Shown: one piece after another, positions 38,798 to 59,234 of the stretch
How the letters are laid out: every line of letters starts with the position of its first letter
How positions within the stretch are numbered: position 1 is the first letter of the stretch
From: Candidatus Brocadia sp.
Lineage (GTDB): Bacteria; Planctomycetota; Brocadiia; Brocadiales; Brocadiaceae
Length of the DNA stretch: 64,000 bases
Reading direction: 5' to 3'
NCBI GenBank assembly: GCA_021646415.1
Contig: SOEU01000008.1
Span: 62,001-126,000, forward strand
Made by a program: the position numbers and the translations under genes
The notes under the pieces: generated by a model
Told to the model about the DNA's origin: nothing
Databases searched by the model: none
The model's input: the letters and a program-made list of their open reading frames with translations, nothing else

Positions 38798-39703
38798 TTA
38801 TGTAAATATTTCCAGGGAAATATCCATGGCCTTCGCCGAGTGGGTAAGAGCACCAATAGAAATTCTGTCTACGCCCGTTTGTGCCACAAGATGGACATTT
38901 TCCAGGGTAATATTTCCGGACGCCTCGGTAAGTGGTTGGCGTTTTCCTTCGCCATATTTCCACCCTTTAACCACTTTTACAGCATCGTTCAATAGCTGGA
39001 TGCTCATATTATCAAACAGTATGATATCAACCCCTGCTGCAAGAGCATCCTTTACTTCTTCCAGCGTCCTTGTTTCTACCTCGATTAAAATATCCTTCTT
39101 TATTCGTTGTTTTAAAAAAGACACAGCTTTTTCAATAATGCTATCATGGGAAGATATGCTAAACAATACTTTGTTTTTTATAATATCCAGGTGATTGTCT
39201 TTTATCAGCACCTGGTCATAAAGACCCATCCGATGATTGGTCCCACCACCTACTCCCACTGCGTATTTTTCCAAATATCGCCAACCTGGGATAGTCTTCC
39301 TTGTGTCCATAATGGAGGTTTTTAAAGTTTTGATACGCTCGACAAACTGTGATGTTAGCGTTGCGATCCCCGAAAGCCTTTGAAGGAAATTTAAGGCAAT
39401 CCGTTCGCCGGAGAGGATGGCCTTTGCTCTGCCATTTACTACAGCAATGGTCTCACCTTTATGAACGAAGACTCCTTCCTTAACCCAATGTTTAAAAAAA
39501 ACGTTCTTATCGAGTTTTGAAAAAAAGTATTCAACAACCGGCAATCCGGCAATCACCCCGGCCTCTTTTGCAATAAATGATCCTTCAATCATCAAATTAT
39601 CTGGAACGAGGTTTTCAGTTGTAATGTCCCCGGTAAAGATGTCCTCCTGAATAGCTAATTGAATAAGGACATCTATCTTTTCAGATTCAAAATTGATTTT
39701 CAT
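38798..39703 (-). CDS. nadC: Nicotinate-nucleotide pyrophosphorylase
   Basis: Converts quinolinate and PRPP to nicotinate mononucleotide in NAD synthesis. The 301-residue protein has the family patterns EDIFTGDITTENL, RKTIPGWRYLEKYAV, HRMGLYDQVLIKDNH and a C-terminal DRISIGALTHSAKA. The ATG at 39703 (MKINFESEKID) is the conserved start. A frame continues to 39811 but its first 36 residues do not resemble the family. It stands alone, divergent from the riboswitch locus. Confidence 0.94.
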   Translation of the reverse strand: MKINFESEKIDVLIQLAIQEDIFTGDITTENLVPDNLMIEGSFIAKEAGVIAGLPVVEYFFSKLDKNVFFKHWVKEGVFVHKGETIAVVNGRAKAILSGERIALNFLQRLSGIATLTSQFVERIKTLKTSIMDTRKTIPGWRYLEKYAVGVGGGTNHRMGLYDQVLIKDNHLDIIKNKVLFSISSHDSIIEKAVSFLKQRIKKDILIEVETRTLEEVKDALAAGVDIILFDNMSIQLLNDAVKVVKGWKYGEGKRQPLTEASGNITLENVHLVAQTGVDRISIGALTHSAKAMDISLEIFT

Positions 39704-39825
39704 GTCCACAGCAACTACCCATCTTTCATCTTTTGTTTTTTGCCTGCCAACACCTCGATAACCCCATTTAATTTTCATTATATTAGTGTTTCGAAGAGAA
39801 CTCAATATCAATCCTTATTTTTTTC

Positions 39826-39853
39826 TTGACATTTAACGATACAGTGCTATTTT
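39826..39853 (+). promoter_or_regulatory. Sigma70-type promoter for the peptide locus
   Basis: TTGACA, a 16-base spacer and TATTTT. The expected transcript start (about 39860) lies some 50 bases before the riboswitch aptamer. Confidence 0.6.
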
Positions 39854-39908
39854 AAATACCAACCGATAATACGAGTTTTTCATAAAGTAAAGGAACAGAC
39901 AAAACATA

Positions 39909-40000
39909 CGATAAAGGCAAACTCCGAGCAATTGGGGGGACGCAAAGTAAAGGGTCTTTCAACGCACAGGGAAGTGAGTTTCGTAAGATAGCCTACTGCA
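39909..40000 (+). ncRNA. GEMM-I (cyclic-di-GMP-type) riboswitch aptamer 1
   Basis: The conserved GEMM-I landmarks occur in order: AAAGGCAAAC, a hairpin closing with GGGG, GACGCAAAG, the GGGTCTT arm, its partner AAGA and a closing TAGCC. The class senses cyclic-di-GMP. A natural variant (GEMM-Ib) senses 3',3'-cGAMP, and I cannot separate the two by eye. The riboswitch precedes a terminator, then four cysteine-rich peptide genes and a radical SAM gene. That places the whole locus under second-messenger control (inference). Confidence 0.85.
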
Positions 40001-40013
40001 TAAGAAAAAAGAC

Positions 40014-40066
40014 AGCCTTACTGCCGAAGATGTTTAGCAAAAATCTTTGCAGTAAGGCTTTTTTTA
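40014..40066 (+). terminator. Riboswitch 1 expression-platform terminator
   Basis: AGCCTTACTGC pairs with GCAGTAAGGCT, with an inner GAAGAT/ATCTT pairing, followed by T7 (ending in TTTTATTTTTT). The upstream aptamer closing strand contains a near copy (AGCCTACTGC), which could compete for the 3' arm. This suggests transcriptional control. Confidence 0.85.
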
Positions 40067-40183
40067 TTTTTTACGGCAAAATATTTCTGAACTTTAATCA
40101 AATATTTATGATCTTGCTTCACCTTAAAAAATTTACTGGATTAAGATGAGCGCAAACAATAATCAACAATTATGGAGGTGGCT
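40067..40183 (+). other. Leader between terminator and first peptide gene
   Basis: An AT-rich ~115-bp leader ending in GGAGG 5 bases before the ATG at 40184. No other element was recognised. Confidence 0.45.
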
Positions 40184-40390
40184 ATGGTAAAACGAAAGAA
40201 TAACCGTTTAAAACTCATATCCCTAACGTTAAAAGACTCTCTTGCCAAATATCGCGTTACATTGTCAGATACATCCCTTGGTGTTGTCGCTCGTGATTTG
40301 ACCAAATCTCTCGGCGATTGTAGTCGCGGTTGCGCGTTTGATTGCAAAGATGGTTGTATAGACGGGTGCAAGGATAGCAGAAAAGGATAG
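40184..40390 (+). CDS. Cysteine-repeat precursor peptide 1
   Basis: A 68-residue peptide. A basic start (MVKRKNNRLK) is followed by the leader motif ISLTLKDSL, then LGDC and a core with five cysteines at exact four-residue spacing (CSRG, CAFD, CKDG, CIDG, C). An upstream in-frame ATG at 40172 is rejected because GGAGG fits the ATG at 40184. The leader-core layout and the neighbouring radical SAM protein indicate a ribosomally made, post-translationally modified peptide. The modification is unknown. Its C-terminus is DSRKG. A metal-binding cysteine helix is the alternative. Confidence 0.75.
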   Translation: MVKRKNNRLKLISLTLKDSLAKYRVTLSDTSLGVVARDLTKSLGDCSRGCAFDCKDGCIDGCKDSRKG

Positions 40391-40401
40391 TGAAACAACT
40401 A

Positions 40402-40455
40402 AATGAACCAAAACAAGATTTATTGAAAATGCAGTTTGTCGTTTAATATTTATGG
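40402..40455 (+). repeat. Spacer repeat between peptides 1 and 2
   Basis: This stretch (ATGAACCAAAACAAGATTTA onward) is clearly related to bases 41072-41126 between peptides 3 and 4 (ATGAACCGAAATGAGATTTA onward, then GCAGT and TATTTA-GGT). Its presence suggests duplication of a two-peptide unit. Confidence 0.75.
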
Positions 40456-40472
40456 TTAGAAGGGAGGGAGCT

Positions 40473-40694
40473 ATGCCTGTGAAAAAAAAAGTTGAACCCC
40501 GTGTAAGGACTATCTCTTTGTTATTAAAAGACTCATTGGGAAGGGCAGGGATTGATCTGCCAAACAATGTAGCCATTTCAACTGCAGGCGAAATACTTCA
40601 GGGGATCGATTTAGGTGACTGCCGGGAAGGCTGTAAAGAAGGCTGTAAAGACGGCTGCAAAGACGGCTGCCAAAGTAATCAGAAAACGAGCTGA
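40473..40694 (+). CDS. Cysteine-repeat precursor peptide 2
   Basis: A 73-residue peptide. Leader motifs are ISLLLKDSL then GIDLP-NNV-STAGEI, almost shared with peptide 4. The core is GDCREGCKEGCKDGCKDGC, with five cysteines at four-residue intervals separated by charged, glycine-containing triplets. The ATG at 40473 has GGGAGGGAG just upstream; an in-frame ATG at 40452 lacks a site. The repeated acidic residue two positions after each cysteine is a candidate crosslink partner (inference). Confidence 0.78.
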   Translation: MPVKKKVEPRVRTISLLLKDSLGRAGIDLPNNVAISTAGEILQGIDLGDCREGCKEGCKDGCKDGCQSNQKTS

Positions 40695-40844
40695 TACCTT
40701 CTAGTGCTGCGAAGCCGCAACCAAAAAAGATACAATAAGCAGTAAGCAGTTGACAGTGAGCTAAAAATGATAAATTCCTTTACACTCTGTATGATTTCAT
40801 GATGGAAAACATTTTATAAACATACACTTAAAAGGAGGAGGATC
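40695..40844 (+). other. Spacer with possible internal promoter before peptide 3
   Basis: This 150-bp gap is unlike the other two spacers. It contains TTGACA near 40750 with an AT-rich region at promoter distance (TAAATT), then AAGGAGGAGG, the strongest ribosome site in the locus. It may start a separate transcript for peptides 3 and 4 outside riboswitch control. Confidence 0.35.
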
Positions 40845-41063
40845 ATGGCAAAAGGGGCCGATCCGAGAATACAGCCTCTCAGGCTTTCCCTGAAGGAGTC
40901 GCTCACCAAACAGGGCATTAAGCTGGATGCAGGTAAGATTAACGCAGTAATAACTGACGTGCTGGATGTTAATTCACTGTGGGACTGCGGAGGCGGCGGA
41001 TGTAAAAAATCATGCAATACCGGCTGTTCTGACGGGTGTAAGGACGTCTCAAAAACAGCGTGA
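40845..41063 (+). CDS. Cysteine-repeat precursor peptide 3
   Basis: A 72-residue peptide with leader motif ADPRIQPLRLSLKESL and a core WDCGGGGCKKSCNTGCSDGC. It is the most divergent of the four: the first two cysteines are separated by four glycines rather than three residues, and the leader lacks the STAGEI motif. The other spacings are again four. AAGGAGGAGG precedes its ATG. Whether the GGGG segment changes processing is unknown. Confidence 0.77.
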   Translation: MAKGADPRIQPLRLSLKESLTKQGIKLDAGKINAVITDVLDVNSLWDCGGGGCKKSCNTGCSDGCKDVSKTA

Positions 41064-41071
41064 GATAACAT

Positions 41072-41126
41072 TAATGAACCGAAATGAGATTTATGAAAAG
41101 CAGTCTTTTTTGATATTTACGGTAAG
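41072..41126 (+). repeat. Spacer repeat between peptides 3 and 4
   Basis: Related to the spacer at 40402-40455: the ATGAACC start, AGATTTAT, GCAGT and TATTTACGGT blocks align with few differences. This supports ancestry by duplication of a peptide-spacer-peptide unit. Confidence 0.75.
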
Positions 41127-41136
41127 GAAATGAATT

Positions 41137-41361
41137 ATGTCTCCTGGAAAAAAGGCCGATCCCCGTTTAAAGATCATTTCTTTGATCTTAAAAGACTCAT
41201 TGGAAAGGACAGGGATTGATCTGCCGTATAGTGTAGTTGTTTCGACTGCCGGTGAAATAATTCAGGTGGATGGCCTATTTGGATGGGGCTGTGGGAGTAG
41301 TTGCAAAGAATGGTGCAAAAAAGCGTGCAAGGAAGGCTGCAAGAATAGTCAGAAAGAGTAA
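41137..41361 (+). CDS. Cysteine-repeat precursor peptide 4
   Basis: A 74-residue peptide. The leader ADPRLKIISLILKDSLERTG and GIDLP-V-STAGEI match peptide 2 closely. The core begins GWGCGSSCKEWCKKACKEGC, again five cysteines each four residues apart, but with aromatic and alanine residues replacing some acidic positions. It lies 66 bases before the radical SAM start. It is the likely partner of peptide 2 by duplication. Confidence 0.77.
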   Translation: MSPGKKADPRLKIISLILKDSLERTGIDLPYSVVVSTAGEIIQVDGLFGWGCGSSCKEWCKKACKEGCKNSQKE

Positions 41362-41427
41362 TAAACAAGGTTGTTTGATCTTCTGATGATAATCGTTTTA
41401 AGAAATTTTCATGTAGGGATGAAAGAT

Positions 41428-42870
41428 ATGCTAACGAACCCCGGAGCGAAACCTCGGATAAATACCCCCTGGCGTATTAGAAATGACAAAACGAGTGTCA
41501 TTGTCTACAAATGTGTTACTGATACGCTGACCCATAAGGTCCTGACACCGGTGGAAGCTACTCTGCTCCCCTTTCTTGATGGGACATTTACCCTGAGTGA
41601 TATCGAAGAGGCGTGGAGCGACGCACTCGCCATCGCAGACAAAAAAGAGGGTCCCCATTCGAACCTTTTCCAAAGTACGTTAACGCATCTTATTTCGCAT
41701 GCAGGCATAGTCACTTTTGATGGTGAACCAAGCCCATCCTTCCGTGAAACTAATCAGCATTTATTCCCTGACTTTTCCTCATATCAATATCCGTTGCAGC
41801 GGCTTGCACGGCCCATCTCAGTGAATATTGCCATTACAAACCGATGCGGGTGCGATTGCATGTACTGTTACGCAGAAAGACGTACCTGTGACGAGGCTGA
41901 TTTTGAACGGTTAAAGGATATCTTCTGCGATCTCTCAGATAATGAAATTTTTATGGTCGACATCACCGGAGGTGATATTTTTACCAGAAAAGACGTGCTC
42001 AGGATACTTACTGAAATGGTAAAACGGGAGTTTGTGTTCTTTCTCTCAACGAAGAGTTTTCTCTCTGAGGAAACGGCATCCAGGTTGAAAGAATTGGGGA
42101 TTGGCATTCCGGATCCGCCACCGCACCTCAGACGTGATATTCAGGTGAGCATAGACAGCCCTGATACAGCAGTAGCGGAAATGCTGACCCGCAGTTCCCG
42201 GTATGTGGAAAATGCCACTGAGACCATAAAAAATCTCATCGCTGCCGGATTAACACCGAGGGTCAAATGCGTCCTCACCAGTTATAACTTTGATGCCCCT
42301 GATGGGCTTGTGCGCCTTTTCTCCAATCTGGGTGTAACCAACTTCCAGTTCGTGCAATATGGTCGAAGCCATTATCGACACGACGATGCGCTCTTTCTGA
42401 CACATGAACAAAAGCTTTACATTAAAGAGGCTATTGAGAGGATACGTGAGAAACACCCTTCAGTATCTATTACAGCACAGGATGATACCAGTGTCCAAAG
42501 CCAGACGAGAAAGAATAGAGAGGATTGGGATCGACGCTCTATCTGCTCTGGCGGTAGGGTGAGTATGCTTATTCAGCCAAACGGGGATGTTACCCTCTGC
42601 GATCAGATCCCTCACGCTGAAAATCATATCGTAGGAAACGTGTTTGAGAAGGGTGTTGCCGGTGTATGGAATTCACCTAAGCTTTATAATTTCCTTTATC
42701 CCTCCAGGGAACAGTTTAATGGAACGGTGTGCTACACCTGTTCTGAATTTGATCTCTGCCACAAATGGCAGGGATATTGTTACCGCGATTCCCTTTTTTA
42801 TTTTGGAACCCTTTTGGATGCACCGCCTGATTGTCCTCGCCAGACGAAGACAGCCCCCCGCCAGATATAA
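41428..42870 (+). CDS. Radical SAM/SPASM peptide maturase with PqqD-like N-terminus
   Basis: A 480-residue protein. An N-terminal ~95-residue region (INTPWRIRNDKTSVIVYK through LISHAGIVTFDG) looks like a PqqD-type peptide-recognition domain. The radical SAM motif C-x3-C-x2-C is at about residues 140-147 (RCGCDCMYC). The C-terminal SPASM-like part starts at the SICSGG segment and includes VTLCDQ, VCYTC, DLCHKW and GYCYRD, enough cysteines for auxiliary iron-sulfur clusters. Enzymes with this layout form thioether or carbon-carbon bonds in peptides. The ATG at 41428 has AGGG 9 bases upstream, while a TTG at 41371 is less likely. The four cysteine-rich peptides upstream are the natural substrates. 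No protease or exporter is adjacent. Confidence 0.85.
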   Translation: MLTNPGAKPRINTPWRIRNDKTSVIVYKCVTDTLTHKVLTPVEATLLPFLDGTFTLSDIEEAWSDALAIADKKEGPHSNLFQSTLTHLISHAGIVTFDGEPSPSFRETNQHLFPDFSSYQYPLQRLARPISVNIAITNRCGCDCMYCYAERRTCDEADFERLKDIFCDLSDNEIFMVDITGGDIFTRKDVLRILTEMVKREFVFFLSTKSFLSEETASRLKELGIGIPDPPPHLRRDIQVSIDSPDTAVAEMLTRSSRYVENATETIKNLIAAGLTPRVKCVLTSYNFDAPDGLVRLFSNLGVTNFQFVQYGRSHYRHDDALFLTHEQKLYIKEAIERIREKHPSVSITAQDDTSVQSQTRKNREDWDRRSICSGGRVSMLIQPNGDVTLCDQIPHAENHIVGNVFEKGVAGVWNSPKLYNFLYPSREQFNGTVCYTCSEFDLCHKWQGYCYRDSLFYFGTLLDAPPDCPRQTKTAPRQI

Positions 42871-43365
42871 TAATATTGCAGTAAAGTTAAAGGTTGATGA
42901 AACTAAGGAGATAGAGGGTATAGAAACCAGAGTTATGGAAGAAAGAGAAACCCTTGACGGTGAATTAGTAGAGGTCTCAAAGAATTACGTTGCAATATGT
43001 AATCGGAATAACAGCGTATTCTATTTTGGAGAAGACGTGAATATATATGAAAATGGAGAGATAGTGAGTCACGATGGTTCCTGGCAATCAGGCGTTGATG
43101 GGGCAAGAGCTGGTATTATAATGCCGGGGACTATTCTATTGGGTTCAAGGTATTTTCATGAAATAGCGCCGGAAGTTGCAACGGACAGAACAGAAATCGT
43201 GAGTATAAATAAGGTTGTTGAGACTCCATGAGGGAAGTTTGAAAATTGTCTGAAAACGATGGAGACTCACTCTTAGAGCCAGGACTCAAAGAATTCAAGT
43301 TTTATTTCCCGGGAATTGGGCTCATACAAGATGGTGTGCTAAAACTTACCGAGGTAAATGAGTAG
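42868..43365 (+). pseudogene. Frameshifted remnant of a small exported-type conserved protein
   Basis: The first frame (YNNIAVKLKVDETKE through VYFGED-like FYFGEDVNIYENG, then IIMPGTILLGSRYFHEIAP) stops after ETP at 43228. The same protein continues in a second frame (GKFENCLKTMET) and then a third (LLEPGLKEFKFYFPGIG, ending LTEVNE at 43365). So two frameshifts broke the gene, and its N-terminus is missing. The block pattern matches a widespread family of uncharacterised secreted proteins. It begins at the end of the maturase gene and probably is not functional. Confidence 0.75.
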
Positions 43366-44909: not shown

Positions 44910-46553
44910 ATGAAAACAATCAGTAAGATGTTGAGCGTTTATGGAGTAATTGCTTTGCTTGTACTGGCAAGCGGTTCCCTATTTGCATCCAGCCATATGG
45001 ATGCGCCGCTGATTACCCTTGACCCGGCTGCTAACACCACCGATGTTTACGCATTCGTCGACGAAGACAACAGCAACAAAAACCTCGTTGTAGCACTTGG
45101 CGTGTACCCGTTCGAGGAGCCGGGTATCGGCCCAAACAAGTATAACTTTGACGATAACGTGCTCTACGAGATCCACGTTGCGTTAGGTGATGACGTTGCC
45201 GCTGGACGCAAGACGTTAAGCTACCAGTTCTTGTTTGAAACTAAGTTTAAGAATCAGAACACCATCCTCCAGTCATATCTGGGTGTCATTAACGATGTGG
45301 ATGACGCAAATCAAAACCTGACCCAAACCTATACGGTCACTAAAGTCGATCACCGCACGAAAAAGAAAACCGAAACTGTCCTTGGCTCCGGTATCGTTCC
45401 CCCGAACAATCAGGGAATTGCCACACCCTTTTATAACCAGGACGACGACGGTGAGAATCCCGCTAAGGGTGGTGTAGCCACGGAAGCAGAACTCGATAAG
45501 TACACAAAGCAGGCCATTGCCACGCTGAGCAACGGCTACGTTGCATTCGCCGGACAACGGGATGATGGTTTTTACGGCGATATCCAATCTATCTTTGACC
45601 TGCTGGAACTGCCAGACTGGGTCAAATGGGCAATTTTATCCTATTCAGTGGGATTTATTCCCCATTTTATAGGCTAAAAAGCGACAAAACGAGTACAAAA
45701 ATGGTAATTTATAGTAGTTCTTACCCACTTTTGAAGCAAAAAAGTTCATTTGACCCAGTCTGTGCGCGATCCCGGCAAAGATTCCCAGGGCGGGTTCAAC
45801 CTCCACCTTATGGCCCTGGAGATTCCCGTGAGTGAACTTGGCGGTGACCAGCAGATCGTTGGAGTTTATGCCACCACCAGCCGCCGTAAAACTACAGTGC
45901 TGAGCACGAGGCCCGAGAAAAAAGATGATAAGATCACGGGGCCGTTTGTTCAGGTTGGACGGCAAGGCAATCCTCTGTTCAACGAAGGTCTGGTCGCTAT
46001 TGCGGACAAGGACTTGTACAGCCGAACGAGTCCCACAAGAGATAGTGTCATCTTCCGCAAATACGCGGAGAGCCCAGAGCTGGCAAAGCTGATCAACCTG
46101 CTCGTTATCCCTGGAACAGGCCTCGTGCCAGCTGTTGAAACCGGTCGTACCGATATTGCTGGCATTTACATTCCCGATTTGATCAAAGTTGACCTCTCGA
46201 CCAGTGGTGTTCGGCTTGCGGGTGGAGGACCAGACGACCCCAACAATCCTGATGATTCTGGCTTCTCACGGTTGAGCATCTTTGGTAATGATGTGTTACA
46301 GAGCGATATTCAGGATCCGTTTGACAACGGTGGATTTATCGCCGGTGGTTGGCCAAACGGCAGGCGTTTCGGTGACGACGTAGTGGATATTGCAATCTCG
46401 GCCCTCATCAGCGACCTGCGCACACTTCCCCTGTTCGTACAGGTGGCGGGTGACGGAGTGAATCAAAATGACATTGTATTTAACAAGGTCTTCCCATACG
46501 AGTCCACACCACAAAACGGCCGCATCCACGGTCATCATGGTGTAGCACCTTAA
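44910..46553 (+). pseudogene. DUF4331 gene split by a small inserted element
   Basis: The first part (to ~45611) encodes a signal peptide (cleaved near LFASS), SHMDAPLITLD and a DUF4331 body ending FDLLEL. The second part (from ~45765) resumes with RDPGKDSQGGFNLHLMALE and ends GHHGVAP. In family members these join as FDLL-RDPG. The insert at 45613-45762 adds a stop after HFIG (45677), so no full-length protein is made unless the two parts reassemble. DUF4331 proteins are secreted and uncharacterised. A strong AAAGGAGG site precedes the start. Confidence 0.8.
45613..45762 (+). mobile_element. MITE-like element, about 150 bp, with 16-bp terminal inverted repeats
   Basis: CAGACTGGGTCAAATG at 45613-45628 is the exact reverse complement of bases 45747-45762. 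The interior is AT-rich and codes for nothing, unlike the GC-rich flanks. No obvious target-site duplication was found, perhaps 2 bp at most. The element interrupts the DUF4331 gene. Absence of a transposase makes it a non-autonomous element. The matching transposase family is unknown. Confidence 0.75.
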
Positions 46554-48201: not shown

Positions 48202-50943
48202 ATGAATACACCATTTATAGATTCAATTACATCAGAGTATATTAAATCCATTACCAATAATGGCGTCTTTAACCGTGGACTTTCGTATTACAAAAGTGGC
48301 CGTGTACATAATCTAAGCTATGATAATGATGGAGAATTAACGGCGGAAGTCGCGGGTAGTGAATCGGTTCCCTACAGTGTCTTCATACTTTCGAATGAGG
48401 AAGAAATATATGAAATGGATTGTGAGTGTTTGTATGCCTCGGATGGCGAGATATGCAAGCACATTGTTGCTACTCTATTAGAGTGGATTGAGCATAGAGA
48501 TAAAGCAAAACGCCATAGACCGCTACCCTCTCGACAAAAAGCACTTTTTGACCCGGACGATATTTTTAGGAAGATTTTGCCATTTTCTTCTTACGAGCCG
48601 AGTCCTGTGGATATTTTAGGTGAAATCTTTTCTGGCTTTGGTCATTTCAACATTAAAGTGGATTTGCTCGATGGCGGGCCACGACTCGAACTCAAGCTGG
48701 TTTCTCCTCATGGCGGCGGCGAAACGGTGTTCCACCTCTCAGCAGAAAAAAGTCCCCATGTTTTTGAAAAATTAACGAGATTTTCCGGCAATACTGTGGA
48801 ATTATCCGAACGGGCAAAACGAACAAAGCTCTATAAGAGCCCGCTCGTCCCCTATCTTCATGCCGATATAAACAACGATGGGCATATTGAGTTGTCCCCT
48901 ATCCTGAAATTCAAGAGTTCCGGCAAAAAAGAGGAGCAGGCCTTTCTGTGGGAACAATTAGCCGAGCACCGGATCAGCGAAGGATGGGTATGGTTAAACA
49001 ATTCCTACAGGCCTATCAATCCCATTTCCTTCAACCTGAAACCCTATTTTCATAAACAAAAGCCGCTTGTTTATAAAGAAAAGGATGCGATTGATTTCCT
49101 TAAACACGATCTCAACCTATTACTCAATGACTCATCCTTTAAACCTTCAGAACGATTGAAGGGCGCGGAGGTTCATGACAAGCCAGATGTTTCCCATGTG
49201 CAGGTGGAGGCTTGCGATAATGACTGGCTATGGCTGGATCCTACCTATACCGTAGGAAGACACACCGTCACCCTTTCTGAGATTTTGTCATGCATTGATA
49301 AAGAACGCTGCATGAGAAAAGATACGGATTATCTAGAAATTCCTAAGGAAATCATGGAACTCTGGCAGCGTGGCAACGGTGTCATTGAAAATGGGCGGAT
49401 CAAGATGCCCAAATTGGGATACCTGCGCACGCGGGCTGAATGCAGCAAGAAAGCAAAGATAACTGCATGTCATGAGACGCAGAAATTTTTGGCGAGTTTT
49501 GATCGCATCACACCACCACAGCCGGCGCCAGCCGTCACTTCATACAGGGGGAAATTGCGTACCTATCAGCAATCCGGGTATGACTGGCTCTGGTTCCTGC
49601 ATACGAACAACTTCAACGGCATCCTGGCCGACGAGATGGGGCTGGGCAAGACACATCAGGCGATGGTGGTAATCCTCTCTGCGTTACAAACTGAACCGAA
49701 CATGCCTAATCTGGTCATCTGTCCCACATCTGTGCTGGATCACTGGAAATCAAAATTTCAGACCTATGCACCCGAATTAAAGATAGCCCTGTTTTATGGA
49801 AAAGAAAGAAATATCCTCTTTTCAGACGACCTCCCATCAGTTGTATTAACAACTTATAGCATCCTTTCCCGCGATATGGAAGGTCTTAGCAAGATTCAAT
49901 GGAATTACGTAGTACTGGACGAGGCACAAAAGATCAAGAACCACAACACCCAGATGTGCAAGGCCACAAAATTCCTCAAGGCACGGCATCGCCTTGCGCT
50001 GACAGGCACCCCTATTGAAAACCGATTAACAGAATTGTGGTCGATCTTTGACTTCCTCATGCCAGGCTATCTGGGGAGCATAGATGATTTTAGGAAACGA
50101 TACGAGAACCCCATCACGAAATATCAGGACAATGAAAAACGCGAGGTATTAAAGAAGATCATCCACCCCTTTAAATTAAGACGGCTCAAGAAGGATGTCT
50201 TGACCGAACTGCCACCAAAGACGGAAGAAAAGCGGTATTGCACACTAGCGCCAGCCCAGGTCGTTATGTATAAAGACATCATTAGTGAACGGGGAAGCAA
50301 GCTTATTGCGAAGCTCAAGGATGAAAGTCAGCCAGTAGAATACATCCACATCTTTGCATTACTCACCAAATTGAAACGACTCTGTGACCATCCCAAACTG
50401 GTACTGAATGGAAATTCTCCCAAAGGGGCTACCTCGGGCAAATTCGAACTCTTCAAGGAGATCATGGAAGAGACGCTGGAGTCTGGAGAAAAGGTTGTCG
50501 TGTTCTCTCAATATCTGGAGATGCTGGATATCATTGGTGACTGGCTGAACAGCATCGACGTCAGATACGAAACCTTGCGAGGTAGCACTTTGAACCGTGG
50601 TAAGGTTGTAGAGAGATTCCAGAACGACCCCAACCGCAACGTCTTTTTGGGGAGCTTGATGGCAGGCGGTTTAGGAATCGACCTGACCTCCGCCTCTGTG
50701 GTTATCCACTACGACCGGTGGTGGAACGCCGCACGGGAAGACCAGGCCACCGACCGCGTCCACCGCATCGGCCAAACCCGTGGCGTCCAGGTCTTCAAGC
50801 TCATCACCAAAGGCAGCCTGGAAGAAAAGATCGACGCCATGATCACCACCAAGGCCATCCTCATGAATTCTGTGGTCGAGTCGGACGATGCCATGTTTAA
50901 GTCATTTTCGAGGAAGGAATTGATTGAGTTGTTGACGTTTTGA
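48202..50943 (+). CDS. SNF2-family ATPase/helicase with SWIM zinc finger
   Basis: A 913-residue protein. The N-terminal SWIM motif is CECLYASDGEICKHI (residues 74-87). A middle region of unknown fold precedes a SNF2 ATPase (about 450-913) with Walker A DEMGLGKTH near residue 480, Walker B DEAQ near 572, the LTGTPIENR motif, and C-terminal helicase motifs ending in RVHRIGQTRGVQVFKLI. It is the leftmost gene of the defence island. SWIM-SNF2 ATPases are frequent in antiphage loci and translocate on DNA. Its last ~222 bp are repeated twice downstream. A role as anchor for the island is inference. Confidence 0.9.
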   Translation: MNTPFIDSITSEYIKSITNNGVFNRGLSYYKSGRVHNLSYDNDGELTAEVAGSESVPYSVFILSNEEEIYEMDCECLYASDGEICKHIVATLLEWIEHRDKAKRHRPLPSRQKALFDPDDIFRKILPFSSYEPSPVDILGEIFSGFGHFNIKVDLLDGGPRLELKLVSPHGGGETVFHLSAEKSPHVFEKLTRFSGNTVELSERAKRTKLYKSPLVPYLHADINNDGHIELSPILKFKSSGKKEEQAFLWEQLAEHRISEGWVWLNNSYRPINPISFNLKPYFHKQKPLVYKEKDAIDFLKHDLNLLLNDSSFKPSERLKGAEVHDKPDVSHVQVEACDNDWLWLDPTYTVGRHTVTLSEILSCIDKERCMRKDTDYLEIPKEIMELWQRGNGVIENGRIKMPKLGYLRTRAECSKKAKITACHETQKFLASFDRITPPQPAPAVTSYRGKLRTYQQSGYDWLWFLHTNNFNGILADEMGLGKTHQAMVVILSALQTEPNMPNLVICPTSVLDHWKSKFQTYAPELKIALFYGKERNILFSDDLPSVVLTTYSILSRDMEGLSKIQWNYVVLDEAQKIKNHNTQMCKATKFLKARHRLALTGTPIENRLTELWSIFDFLMPGYLGSIDDFRKRYENPITKYQDNEKREVLKKIIHPFKLRRLKKDVLTELPPKTEEKRYCTLAPAQVVMYKDIISERGSKLIAKLKDESQPVEYIHIFALLTKLKRLCDHPKLVLNGNSPKGATSGKFELFKEIMEETLESGEKVVVFSQYLEMLDIIGDWLNSIDVRYETLRGSTLNRGKVVERFQNDPNRNVFLGSLMAGGLGIDLTSASVVIHYDRWWNAAREDQATDRVHRIGQTRGVQVFKLITKGSLEEKIDAMITTKAILMNSVVESDDAMFKSFSRKELIELLTF
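50721..50943 (+). repeat. SNF2 3'-end repeat, copy 1 (inside the intact gene)
   Basis: This is the reference copy. It starts at GTGGAACGCC (helicase motif VI region, residues RWWNAAREDQATDRV) and runs to the gene's stop. The same left edge is seen in the other two copies. Confidence 0.85.
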
Positions 50944-58263: not shown

Positions 58264-58299
58264 ATTGATAATCAGTGATTCAGAAAAAAATAAATATTT

Positions 58300-58385
58300 C
58301 GATAAAGGTAAACCCTGAGTAATCAGGGGGCGCAAAGCAAAGGGTCTTTTAACGCAGCGTTAAGAAAAGATTGCCTTACTGCCGA
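58300..58385 (+). ncRNA. GEMM-I (cyclic-di-GMP-type) riboswitch aptamer 2
   Basis: AAAGGTAAAC, a perfect CCCTGA/TCAGGG hairpin, GCGCAAAG, GGGTCTTTT pairing with AAAAGA through an AACGC/GCGTT stem, then TTGCCTTACTGCC. These match the GEMM-I layout and the aptamer at 39909. The closing strand overlaps the 5' arm of the following terminator, an arrangement where ligand binding should prevent termination (an on-switch). This inference depends on the exact pairing. Confidence 0.88.
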
Positions 58386-58424
58386 ATGTGTTTTCCATGA
58401 ACATTTTTGCAGTAAGGCTTTTTT
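58373..58424 (+). terminator. Riboswitch 2 expression-platform terminator
   Basis: GCCTTACTGC pairs with GCAGTAAGGC, followed by T6. The stem is identical to that of riboswitch 1's terminator (40014-40066) although the loops differ. Confidence 0.88.
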
Positions 58425-58454: not shown

Positions 58455-59234
58455 ATGAGAAATATAATTAAAATTCCCCTCATAGTAATTCCTTCAATAA
58501 TTCTTATCGTTTTTATTTTTTTCTCACTCTTTATCAACACCATTGTTAAGAAAAGTGTTGTATCCTTTGGACCAAAGATTACCCAAACTCCCGTAAGTCT
58601 TCAAAAAGTTAAGATGTCACTTCTTTCCGGACATAGCGAAATACACGGACTTGTCATAGGCAATCCAGAAGGCTTTCATACTGATTCCGCATTAAAATTT
58701 GATACCGTTGTAATAGATATCAGCCCCCTTTCCATTTTCTCCGATAAAGTAATCATTCGGGATATTCTTGTCGATGGCCCTGAGATAACGTATGAAACAT
58801 CTGTTGAAGGAAGCAACGTTGGCAAGATTAAAAAAAATGTTGAATCATATTCCTCGTCATCCCGTTCACAAACAAAAGAGCCTGGTGAAACGAAACAAGT
58901 GCAAATAGACACATTTTTACTTCAAAATGGAAAAATTCGGCTGGGCGCTACATTATTACAAGGGAAAACGTTGGACATTCCGCTTATGAAAGTGCAATTG
59001 AACGATATTGGAAAAGAGTCCGGCAGCGCAAGCTTTCCCGATGTCATTGAGAAGTTGGCTGATGCAATATACAAGGCGATTCTCGAAGCAGTCAAGGAAT
59101 CAGGCAAAACCATTGAAAAGGGAGTTGACGCCGTGACTGAGTCAGCCAAAGAGATAAAAGAGATAGATGAAAAAGCAAAAGAGGGCTTGTCGGAAGCAAT
59201 TGAGGGAATGAAAAAACTGTTTGACAAAAAGTGA
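58455..59234 (+). CDS. AsmA-like membrane-anchored protein under riboswitch 2
   Basis: A 259-residue protein with one N-terminal membrane segment (about residues 7-28) and an AsmA/DUF748-like beta region (VSLQKVKMSLLSGHSEIHGLV, FDTVVIDISPLSIFS). The C-terminal charged helical region (about residues 190-259) is rich in Lys and Glu. AsmA-type proteins bridge or tether membranes in envelope biogenesis. Its control by a cyclic-di-GMP-type switch points to a surface or biofilm function (inference). AAAGGGAG lies 8 bases before the start. Confidence 0.7.
   Translation: MRNIIKIPLIVIPSIILIVFIFFSLFINTIVKKSVVSFGPKITQTPVSLQKVKMSLLSGHSEIHGLVIGNPEGFHTDSALKFDTVVIDISPLSIFSDKVIIRDILVDGPEITYETSVEGSNVGKIKKNVESYSSSSRSQTKEPGETKQVQIDTFLLQNGKIRLGATLLQGKTLDIPLMKVQLNDIGKESGSASFPDVIEKLADAIYKAILEAVKESGKTIEKGVDAVTESAKEIKEIDEKAKEGLSEAIEGMKKLFDKK

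Follow-up and report, generated by a model that had tools for sequence, protein, structure and literature searches.

The DNA analysed here, referred to throughout as the window, is a 64-kb (64,000-nucleotide) stretch from Candidatus Brocadia sp. (contig SOEU01000008.1 of assembly GCA_021646415.1, positions 62,001 to 126,000); its host genome, at 3.81 Mb in 42 contigs, is 99.96% complete. The plus strand carries, in this order, a promoter-like site, a c-di-GMP-I (GEMM-I) riboswitch, an intrinsic terminator, four short genes, and a gene for a radical S-adenosylmethionine (SAM)/SPASM protein, with nadC on the opposite strand to the left (Table 1). A sequence-only reading of this DNA had proposed that the four genes encode precursors of a ribosomally synthesized and post-translationally modified peptide (RiPP), with the radical SAM protein as their maturase and cyclic di-GMP (c-di-GMP) in control. 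Its coordinates are correct; the preferred starts are at 40184 for peptide 1 and 41428 (or 41419) for the maturase.

Table 1. Features of the cassette and its edges, in window coordinates (aa, amino acids; ORF, open reading frame; RRE, RiPP recognition element)
Feature	Coordinates	Strand	Evidence
nadC, left flank kept in sister genomes	38798-39811	-	
Promoter-like site TTGACA-16-TATTTT, extended -10 TG, upstream of riboswitch	39826-39853	+	consensus scan, 10/12 matches
c-di-GMP-I (GEMM-I) aptamer	39906-40028	+	Rfam RF01051, 55.7 bits (gathering score 35)
Intrinsic terminator	40014-40074	+	fold -23.3 kcal/mol
Precursor peptide 1, 68 aa, core GDCSRGCAFDCKDGCIDGCKDSRKG	40184-40390	+	ORF with GGAGG ribosome site; G028 ortholog
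Precursor peptide 2, 73 aa, core GDCREGCKEGCKDGCKDGCQSNQKTS	40473-40694	+	ORF; ortholog
Precursor peptide 3, 72 aa, core WDCGGGGCKKSCNTGCSDGCKDVSKTA, first spacing 5	40845-41063	+	ORF; ortholog
Precursor peptide 4, 74 aa, core GWGCGSSCKEWCKKACKEGCKNSQKE	41137-41361	+	ORF; ortholog
Radical SAM/SPASM maturase, 480 aa	41428-42870	+	Pfam PF04055, PF13186; putative RRE at about residues 10-100
Decayed remnant of riboswitch cargo gene, right cassette edge	42900-43347	+	tblastn with intact G015 gene

The four tandem genes do encode cysteine-repeat peptides: each has five cysteines, spaced 4,4,4,4 in peptides 1, 2, and 4 and 5,4,4,4 in peptide 3. The strict C(xxxC)x4 pattern did not occur once among 8252 ORFs of codon-shuffled windows. 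A Shine-Dalgarno-like stretch precedes all four genes, although it is weaker before the fourth. In an alignment of eight sequences (the four peptides and their orthologs), the common leader motif is borne out by invariant residues K3, R8, L14, L16, K17, S19, L20, L27, and L43 in the leader half; the core half has the five cysteines and one lysine after them. Between the first and last cysteine, only cysteine is invariant. Peptide 2 lacks aromatic residues beyond the first cysteine of its core, and this speaks against a general chemistry of cyclophanes or other aromatic cross-links. The leader had not been recognised in the sequence-only reading, and in an NCBIfam profile search the peptides likewise pass the cut-off of no named family.

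The protein encoded downstream has both expected Pfam domains above cut-off (PF04055 Radical_SAM, 41.1 bits against 29.5; PF13186 SPASM, 41.0 bits against 21.5). Its radical SAM motif, C140-X3-C144-X2-C147, is invariant among relatives, and C373, C391, C435, C438, C444, C451, and C469 are conserved SPASM cysteines. No Pfam or NCBIfam model assigns the enzyme to a named family: its best NCBIfam scores are 92.6 bits to MftC (mycofactocin; cut-off 265) and 88.1 bits to GeoRSP (cut-off 400). In a fold search, the top solved structures were RiPP maturases, with SuiB first (including the SuiB-SuiA complex), and PqqE, TigE, and SkfB. A PqqD-like, leader-binding N-terminus, also part of the sequence-only reading, is plausible: a low-confidence model orders the first 100 residues as b-b-b-a-a-a, and the motif LTPxEAxxxxxxDGxxTxxxI is in register with the genome’s own PqqD (hhalign P 0.0017, probability 15%).

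The aptamer upstream, inspected beside the genome’s other aptamers, retains AAAGGC, GACGCAAAG, and CTGCCGAA; the G, A, and C in these are presumably (in Vc2 numbering) ligand contacts of the c-di-GMP type, and not those of the cGAMP-type (cyclic GMP-AMP) variant. The 5′ arm of the terminator is the 3′ strand of the aptamer, GCCTTACTGCC, and a T run comes after the 3′ arm, GCAGTAAGGC. Because the terminator uses this strand, aptamer and terminator are mutually exclusive, and ligand binding should therefore permit read-through; from its anatomy, the riboswitch is predicted to be an ON switch for c-di-GMP. The host genome encodes 12 GGDEF domains, so c-di-GMP can be made. The Geobacter pilM GEMM-I riboswitch differs in two ways: the window aptamer keeps the G that we take to be expected for c-di-GMP, not the cGAMP-type base, and it leads a RiPP cassette. 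They are alike in that terminator and ligand-competent aptamer exclude each other, with the aptamer 3′ strand reused; the pilM riboswitch is an ON switch whose terminator sequesters the base pairing with the ligand (PMC9262584).

The cassette is patchily distributed. When 62 genomes of the order Brocadiales were queried with the maturase and with the peptides separately, both searches found it in the same three, in each place as four peptides and one maturase; no orphan peptide, lacking a radical SAM neighbour, was found in the 62 genomes. A sample of 392 genomes of the phylum yielded no further copies, and there were no relatives on viral contigs and no peptide 4 on plasmids. One Brocadiales genome of another family (G044, locus L012) has only distant radical SAM homologs (27-28% identity), as a tandem pair of radical SAM/SPASM genes that lie downstream of a 68-aa ORF. 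Of the three copies, that on contig 35 of genome G020 is nearly identical over 11 kb to that of genome G028 (11163 of about 11500 31-mers). G028 belongs to another anammox genus, while G020 is placed in the genus of the window with 6% contamination, and for these two reasons the G020 copy is probably mis-binned.

Between the window and G028, whose copies are independent, all 20 core cysteines are kept (5/5 in each peptide). The ratios of nonsynonymous to synonymous substitution (dN/dS) are 0.30, 0.305, 0.10, and 0.32 for peptides 1 to 4 and 0.16 for the maturase: the cassette genes are under purifying selection. Riboswitch and terminator are intact in both copies. In G028 the riboswitch scores 66.0 bits with RF01051, though the related RF03167 is the top score there, and the terminator again overlaps the aptamer 3′ strand (-28.1 kcal/mol). 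The RiPP pattern proposed from the sequence is thus supported by the co-occurrence of peptides and maturase, by the conserved core cysteines, by purifying selection, and by precursor-like genes beside relatives of the maturase.

Those relatives come from a wider scan of 84,980 species genomes. They match the maturase over its full length, including the N-terminal domain, and occur in a Peptococcaceae metagenome-assembled genome (MAG; UBA6129, 48% identity) and in Methanoperedens-type and other Methanosarcinales archaea (43-44%). Just upstream at each locus examined is a small gene for a short helical leader with a C-terminal cysteine pair. The pair lies in a CxxCxNGxHW core, where the window has CXXX repeats; no Rfam riboswitch was found at the loci of this group. 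The archaeal clusters further differ in having a peptide prenyltransferase resembling LynF/TruF and a flavin oxidase. At Methanoperedens-type loci (L016, L017, L018, L019, and L021), these are a LynF/TruF/PatF homolog (E 1e-23 to the solved SmiF) and a flavin amine oxidase, and the precursor ends in GWHW, making this a candidate archaeal pathway for a prenylated RiPP. More distant relatives (about 30%) were also found. On a Paenibacillus plasmid, one accompanies two cysteine-rich precursors; on Mesorhizobium and Rhizobium plasmids (L022, L023), one follows a precursor ending in CDSCTVCPCMICW and is itself followed by a second radical SAM enzyme near TIGR04463. From these sequences, there appears to be one enzyme group whose precursor leaders may be related and whose cores are widely different.

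If the cassette functions as its sequence suggests, high c-di-GMP would let the aptamer retain its 3′ strand, block the terminator, and allow the transcript to enter the precursor genes and the maturase gene. The precursor leaders, of some 45-50 residues with an (I/L)SLxLKDSL-type helix, would be recognised by the PqqD-like N-terminal domain, a step for which the evidence is weak, and the SAM cluster and SPASM clusters would oxidise the five-cysteine C-terminal core. The most likely products would be thioether links from cysteine to a nearby residue, each costing the peptide up to about 2 Da. Three points favour thioethers: cysteine is the sole invariant repeat residue, SPASM maturases of cysteine-rich precursors make such links, and core 2 offers no aromatic acceptor. 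The cassette itself includes no gene for a protease, a transporter, or immunity, so that the product would either be matured by trans-acting proteins or act inside the cell. This interpretation, a RiPP cassette under a c-di-GMP-ON riboswitch with a leader-guided maturase making cysteine-based and probably thioether links, is considered likely. The exact bond is its least certain part: with neither a fixed acceptor nor a family match, the cysteine-directed chemistry may be of another kind.

Several observations weigh against it. Peptides and maturase pass no family cut-off, so the chemistry is assigned by analogy, and Asp or Glu does not follow every cysteine in cores 3 and 4, leaving PapB-type acceptors incomplete. 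The AlphaFold model of the maturase is poor (mean predicted local distance difference test score 56.7), for which reason the fold search is no more than indicative, and neither Pfam nor a PDB sequence search gave a significant PqqD match in the maturase. Comparison of the leader profile with the archaeal and Peptococcaceae precursors gave hhalign P 0.0057 with a probability of 6%; this weak similarity is no more than suggestive of a shared leader ancestry. The G020 cassette, nearly identical to that of G028, was not accepted as a separate occurrence, so that two are counted. Finally, the G028 maturase is split by a frameshift, although this may be a sequencing error since the near-identical G020 maturase is intact.

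Like TIGR04117 (Syntroph_Cxxx) and its partner TIGR04115, the cassette combines short precursors, C-terminal Cys-X-X-X repeats, and a radical SAM/SPASM neighbour. The likeness does not extend to membership: peptide scores with TIGR04117 are 19.7, 14.5, and no match, against a curated cut-off of 50 bits, and the best score genome-wide is 15.7 bits (E 0.04), which is not significant. The 25 NCBIfam families that score best with the maturase reach down to about 28 bits and do not include TIGR04115 (cut-off 350). With scores this far under cut-off, and with sub-cut-off TIGR04117 matches in 7 of 14 control genomes, filing the cassette under either family was rejected. A second comparison is with PapA/PapB (freyrasin) and the SCIFF ranthipeptides, which likewise have several cysteines per core, a local four-residue geometry, and a SPASM maturase; their leader is directed to an RRE, as is predicted here. 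PapB links Cys to Asp or Glu in CX3D motifs and tolerates other spacings (PMC9413430). Here the fourth position is Cys, not Asp, and acids are missing after some of the cysteines; the maturase scores 30.1 bits with the PapB model NF047865, whose cut-off is 340. For clostridial ranthipeptides, a part in quorum sensing has been reported (PMC8326336). Literature searches found no paper on a radical-SAM RiPP of anammox bacteria or on its control by c-di-GMP. CXXX-repeat radical SAM targets are a known kind. To judge by the literature searched, this maturase group and its leader are new, and so is the placing of such a cassette under a c-di-GMP riboswitch.

This distance from every named thioether family also leaves some room for a maturase that makes another cysteine-directed change, or that alters a neighbouring residue (by epimerisation, decarboxylation, or backbone or side-chain oxidation at Gly, Lys, or Asp) while the cysteines mainly hold metal. 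There is no fixed acceptor residue over the four cores, and the best named relatives, themselves far under cut-off, are MftC and GeoRSP; MftC is not a thioether enzyme. Such chemistry is nonetheless unlikely, given that cysteines are the sole invariant residues of the repeats, with none lost between the two copies, and that the precursors beside maturase relatives also end in cysteine-containing cores.

A more doubtful alternative is that the peptides are unmodified metal-binding cysteine helices, metallothionein-like or redox-active, and that the radical SAM protein has another substrate. Cysteines at i and i+4 would line one face of a helix, and genes for rubredoxin and ferredoxin also stand behind c-di-GMP riboswitches in this genome. 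Modification is favoured instead by the strict co-occurrence of peptides and maturase, by the conserved, leader-like N-terminal half of the peptides, and by the pairing of precursor and maturase in distant organisms whose cores are not of the CXXX type. Least probable of all is a decaying import with no current function, as its patchy distribution (3/62), the broken native cargo gene downstream, and the split G028 maturase might suggest, in view of the low dN/dS values, the open state of all ORFs in the window, the intact riboswitch and terminator in both genomes, and the unbroken G020 maturase, which makes the G028 break a possible sequencing error.

Around the cassette, the sequence common to the window and G028 is limited to 39899-42822; the flanks are nadC in the window versus a HemW-like gene and a group II intron in G028. 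Synonymous divergence (dS) between the two is 2.55 for CTP synthase and 2.33 for nadC, against 0.43 for the maturase and 0.21-0.41 for the peptides. The cassette copies thus share a much younger ancestor than the genomes do, and dS and synteny together show horizontal transfer from one anammox genus to another, with most of the riboswitch included; vertical inheritance with losses is disfavoured on the same values.

To the left of about 39890, the window fits the nadC locus of a sister genome (G017; 0.65-0.95 per 40 columns, versus 0.30-0.70 for G028); from about 39911, it fits G028 better, with 0.90 and 0.62 versus 0.62 and 0.42 at the variable hairpin at 39951-39971, where the difference is clear. 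The simplest reading of these sequences would put the left junction in or just before the riboswitch. Its exact position we infer, since the conserved parts of the aptamer are alike in all copies and neutral drift after the transfer would alone give about 67% upstream identity.

The slot beside nadC carries other genes in sister genomes. In seven of nine sister genomes examined (L118, L119, L120, L121, L123, L124, and L126), a c-di-GMP-I riboswitch adjoins nadC with different cargo. Two proteases, one caspase-like and one papain-like (Pfam Peptidase_C70), are among this cargo, as are an Ig-like protein and a secreted protein of 263 aa in which no Pfam domain was found. The promoter-like stretch is also kept beside nadC in sister genomes. 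In G019 the site is empty, and nadC is followed directly by the SNF2 helicase gene that in the window sits at 48202. At the right edge of the cassette, the remnant matches the 263-aa gene of G015 (L121) with 49% identity (E 1e-43); the match changes frame, is interrupted by a stop codon, and lacks the 5′ end. An ORF at 42644-43231 was considered as a cassette member but not accepted, because it belongs to the remains of another cargo gene and has no counterpart next to the second copy. Further right, at 44910-46553, is a DUF4331 gene broken by several in-frame stops; the halves on either side of them align to successive stretches of the Pfam model.

In the sequence-only reading, second-messenger control of such a locus appeared new. 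The riboswitch itself is real, but its presence is not particular to the cassette: the 3.8 Mb host genome has 43 c-di-GMP-I riboswitches above the Rfam cut-off. Matches number 21-56 per genome within the genus and are fewer in related genera, and in none of the 14 control genomes was one above cut-off. In most of them, terminator and aptamer 3′ strand overlap (in the host genome, after 35 of the 44 riboswitches other than that of the cassette). Control by c-di-GMP is a habit of the lineage, and it becomes less surprising here given these numbers and at least one more riboswitch-led locus of the radical-SAM peptide type in this genome. The promoter is shared with just one other riboswitch of the genome, and the idea of promoter plus riboswitch as a repeat unit for all of them was rejected.

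Some of the other riboswitch-led loci deserve mention. One, L061 (contig C24:1-5700), has a riboswitch, a 92-aa PqqD, a second riboswitch, an Ig-like protein, and a SPASM enzyme that comes near PapB/QhpD, with 289 bits against a cut-off of 340; a protein with a twin-arginine-type leader and repeats CDPGTNNPDVCDPPNSEDKC runs off the contig end. At L084:359-2205 (contig C12), a riboswitch precedes genes for a 235-aa protein and a radical SAM protein nearest the YydG peptide epimerase (80 bits, cut-off 300). At L069:341-3070 (contig C18), one stands directly before a 910-aa molybdopterin oxidoreductase resembling nitrate reductase and nitrite oxidoreductase alpha subunits, so that core nitrogen metabolism may be under c-di-GMP control. 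The second c-di-GMP-I riboswitch of the window, at 58297-58386, is upstream of a gene for an AsmA/DUF748-type protein (58455-59234).

The many near-identical c-di-GMP-ON riboswitches in Brocadia could conceivably act as recombination seams: foreign or accessory genes, in this case an entire RiPP cassette, would be attached at the riboswitch or within it, incoming cargo would gain c-di-GMP control on arrival, core flank and promoter would be retained, and the lineage would build an exchangeable accessory set including several peptide-modification systems. This is put forward tentatively, as a proposal with somewhat less than even chances. The nadC slot allows asking whether riboswitches aid gene exchange by offering ready-made control of incoming genes.

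If the RiPP interpretation of the cassette is correct, an uncurated maturase group is common to anammox bacteria, a Peptococcaceae MAG, and archaea of the methane-oxidising type, and handles very different cysteine-containing cores. The ON logic, the dependence on the leader, and the mass change are each testable by standard assays. Under the same interpretation, the cassette would be a concrete tie between c-di-GMP, commonly the messenger of life on surfaces and in aggregates, and peptide modification in granule-forming anammox bacteria; speculatively, a peptide switched on by c-di-GMP would fit life in aggregates.

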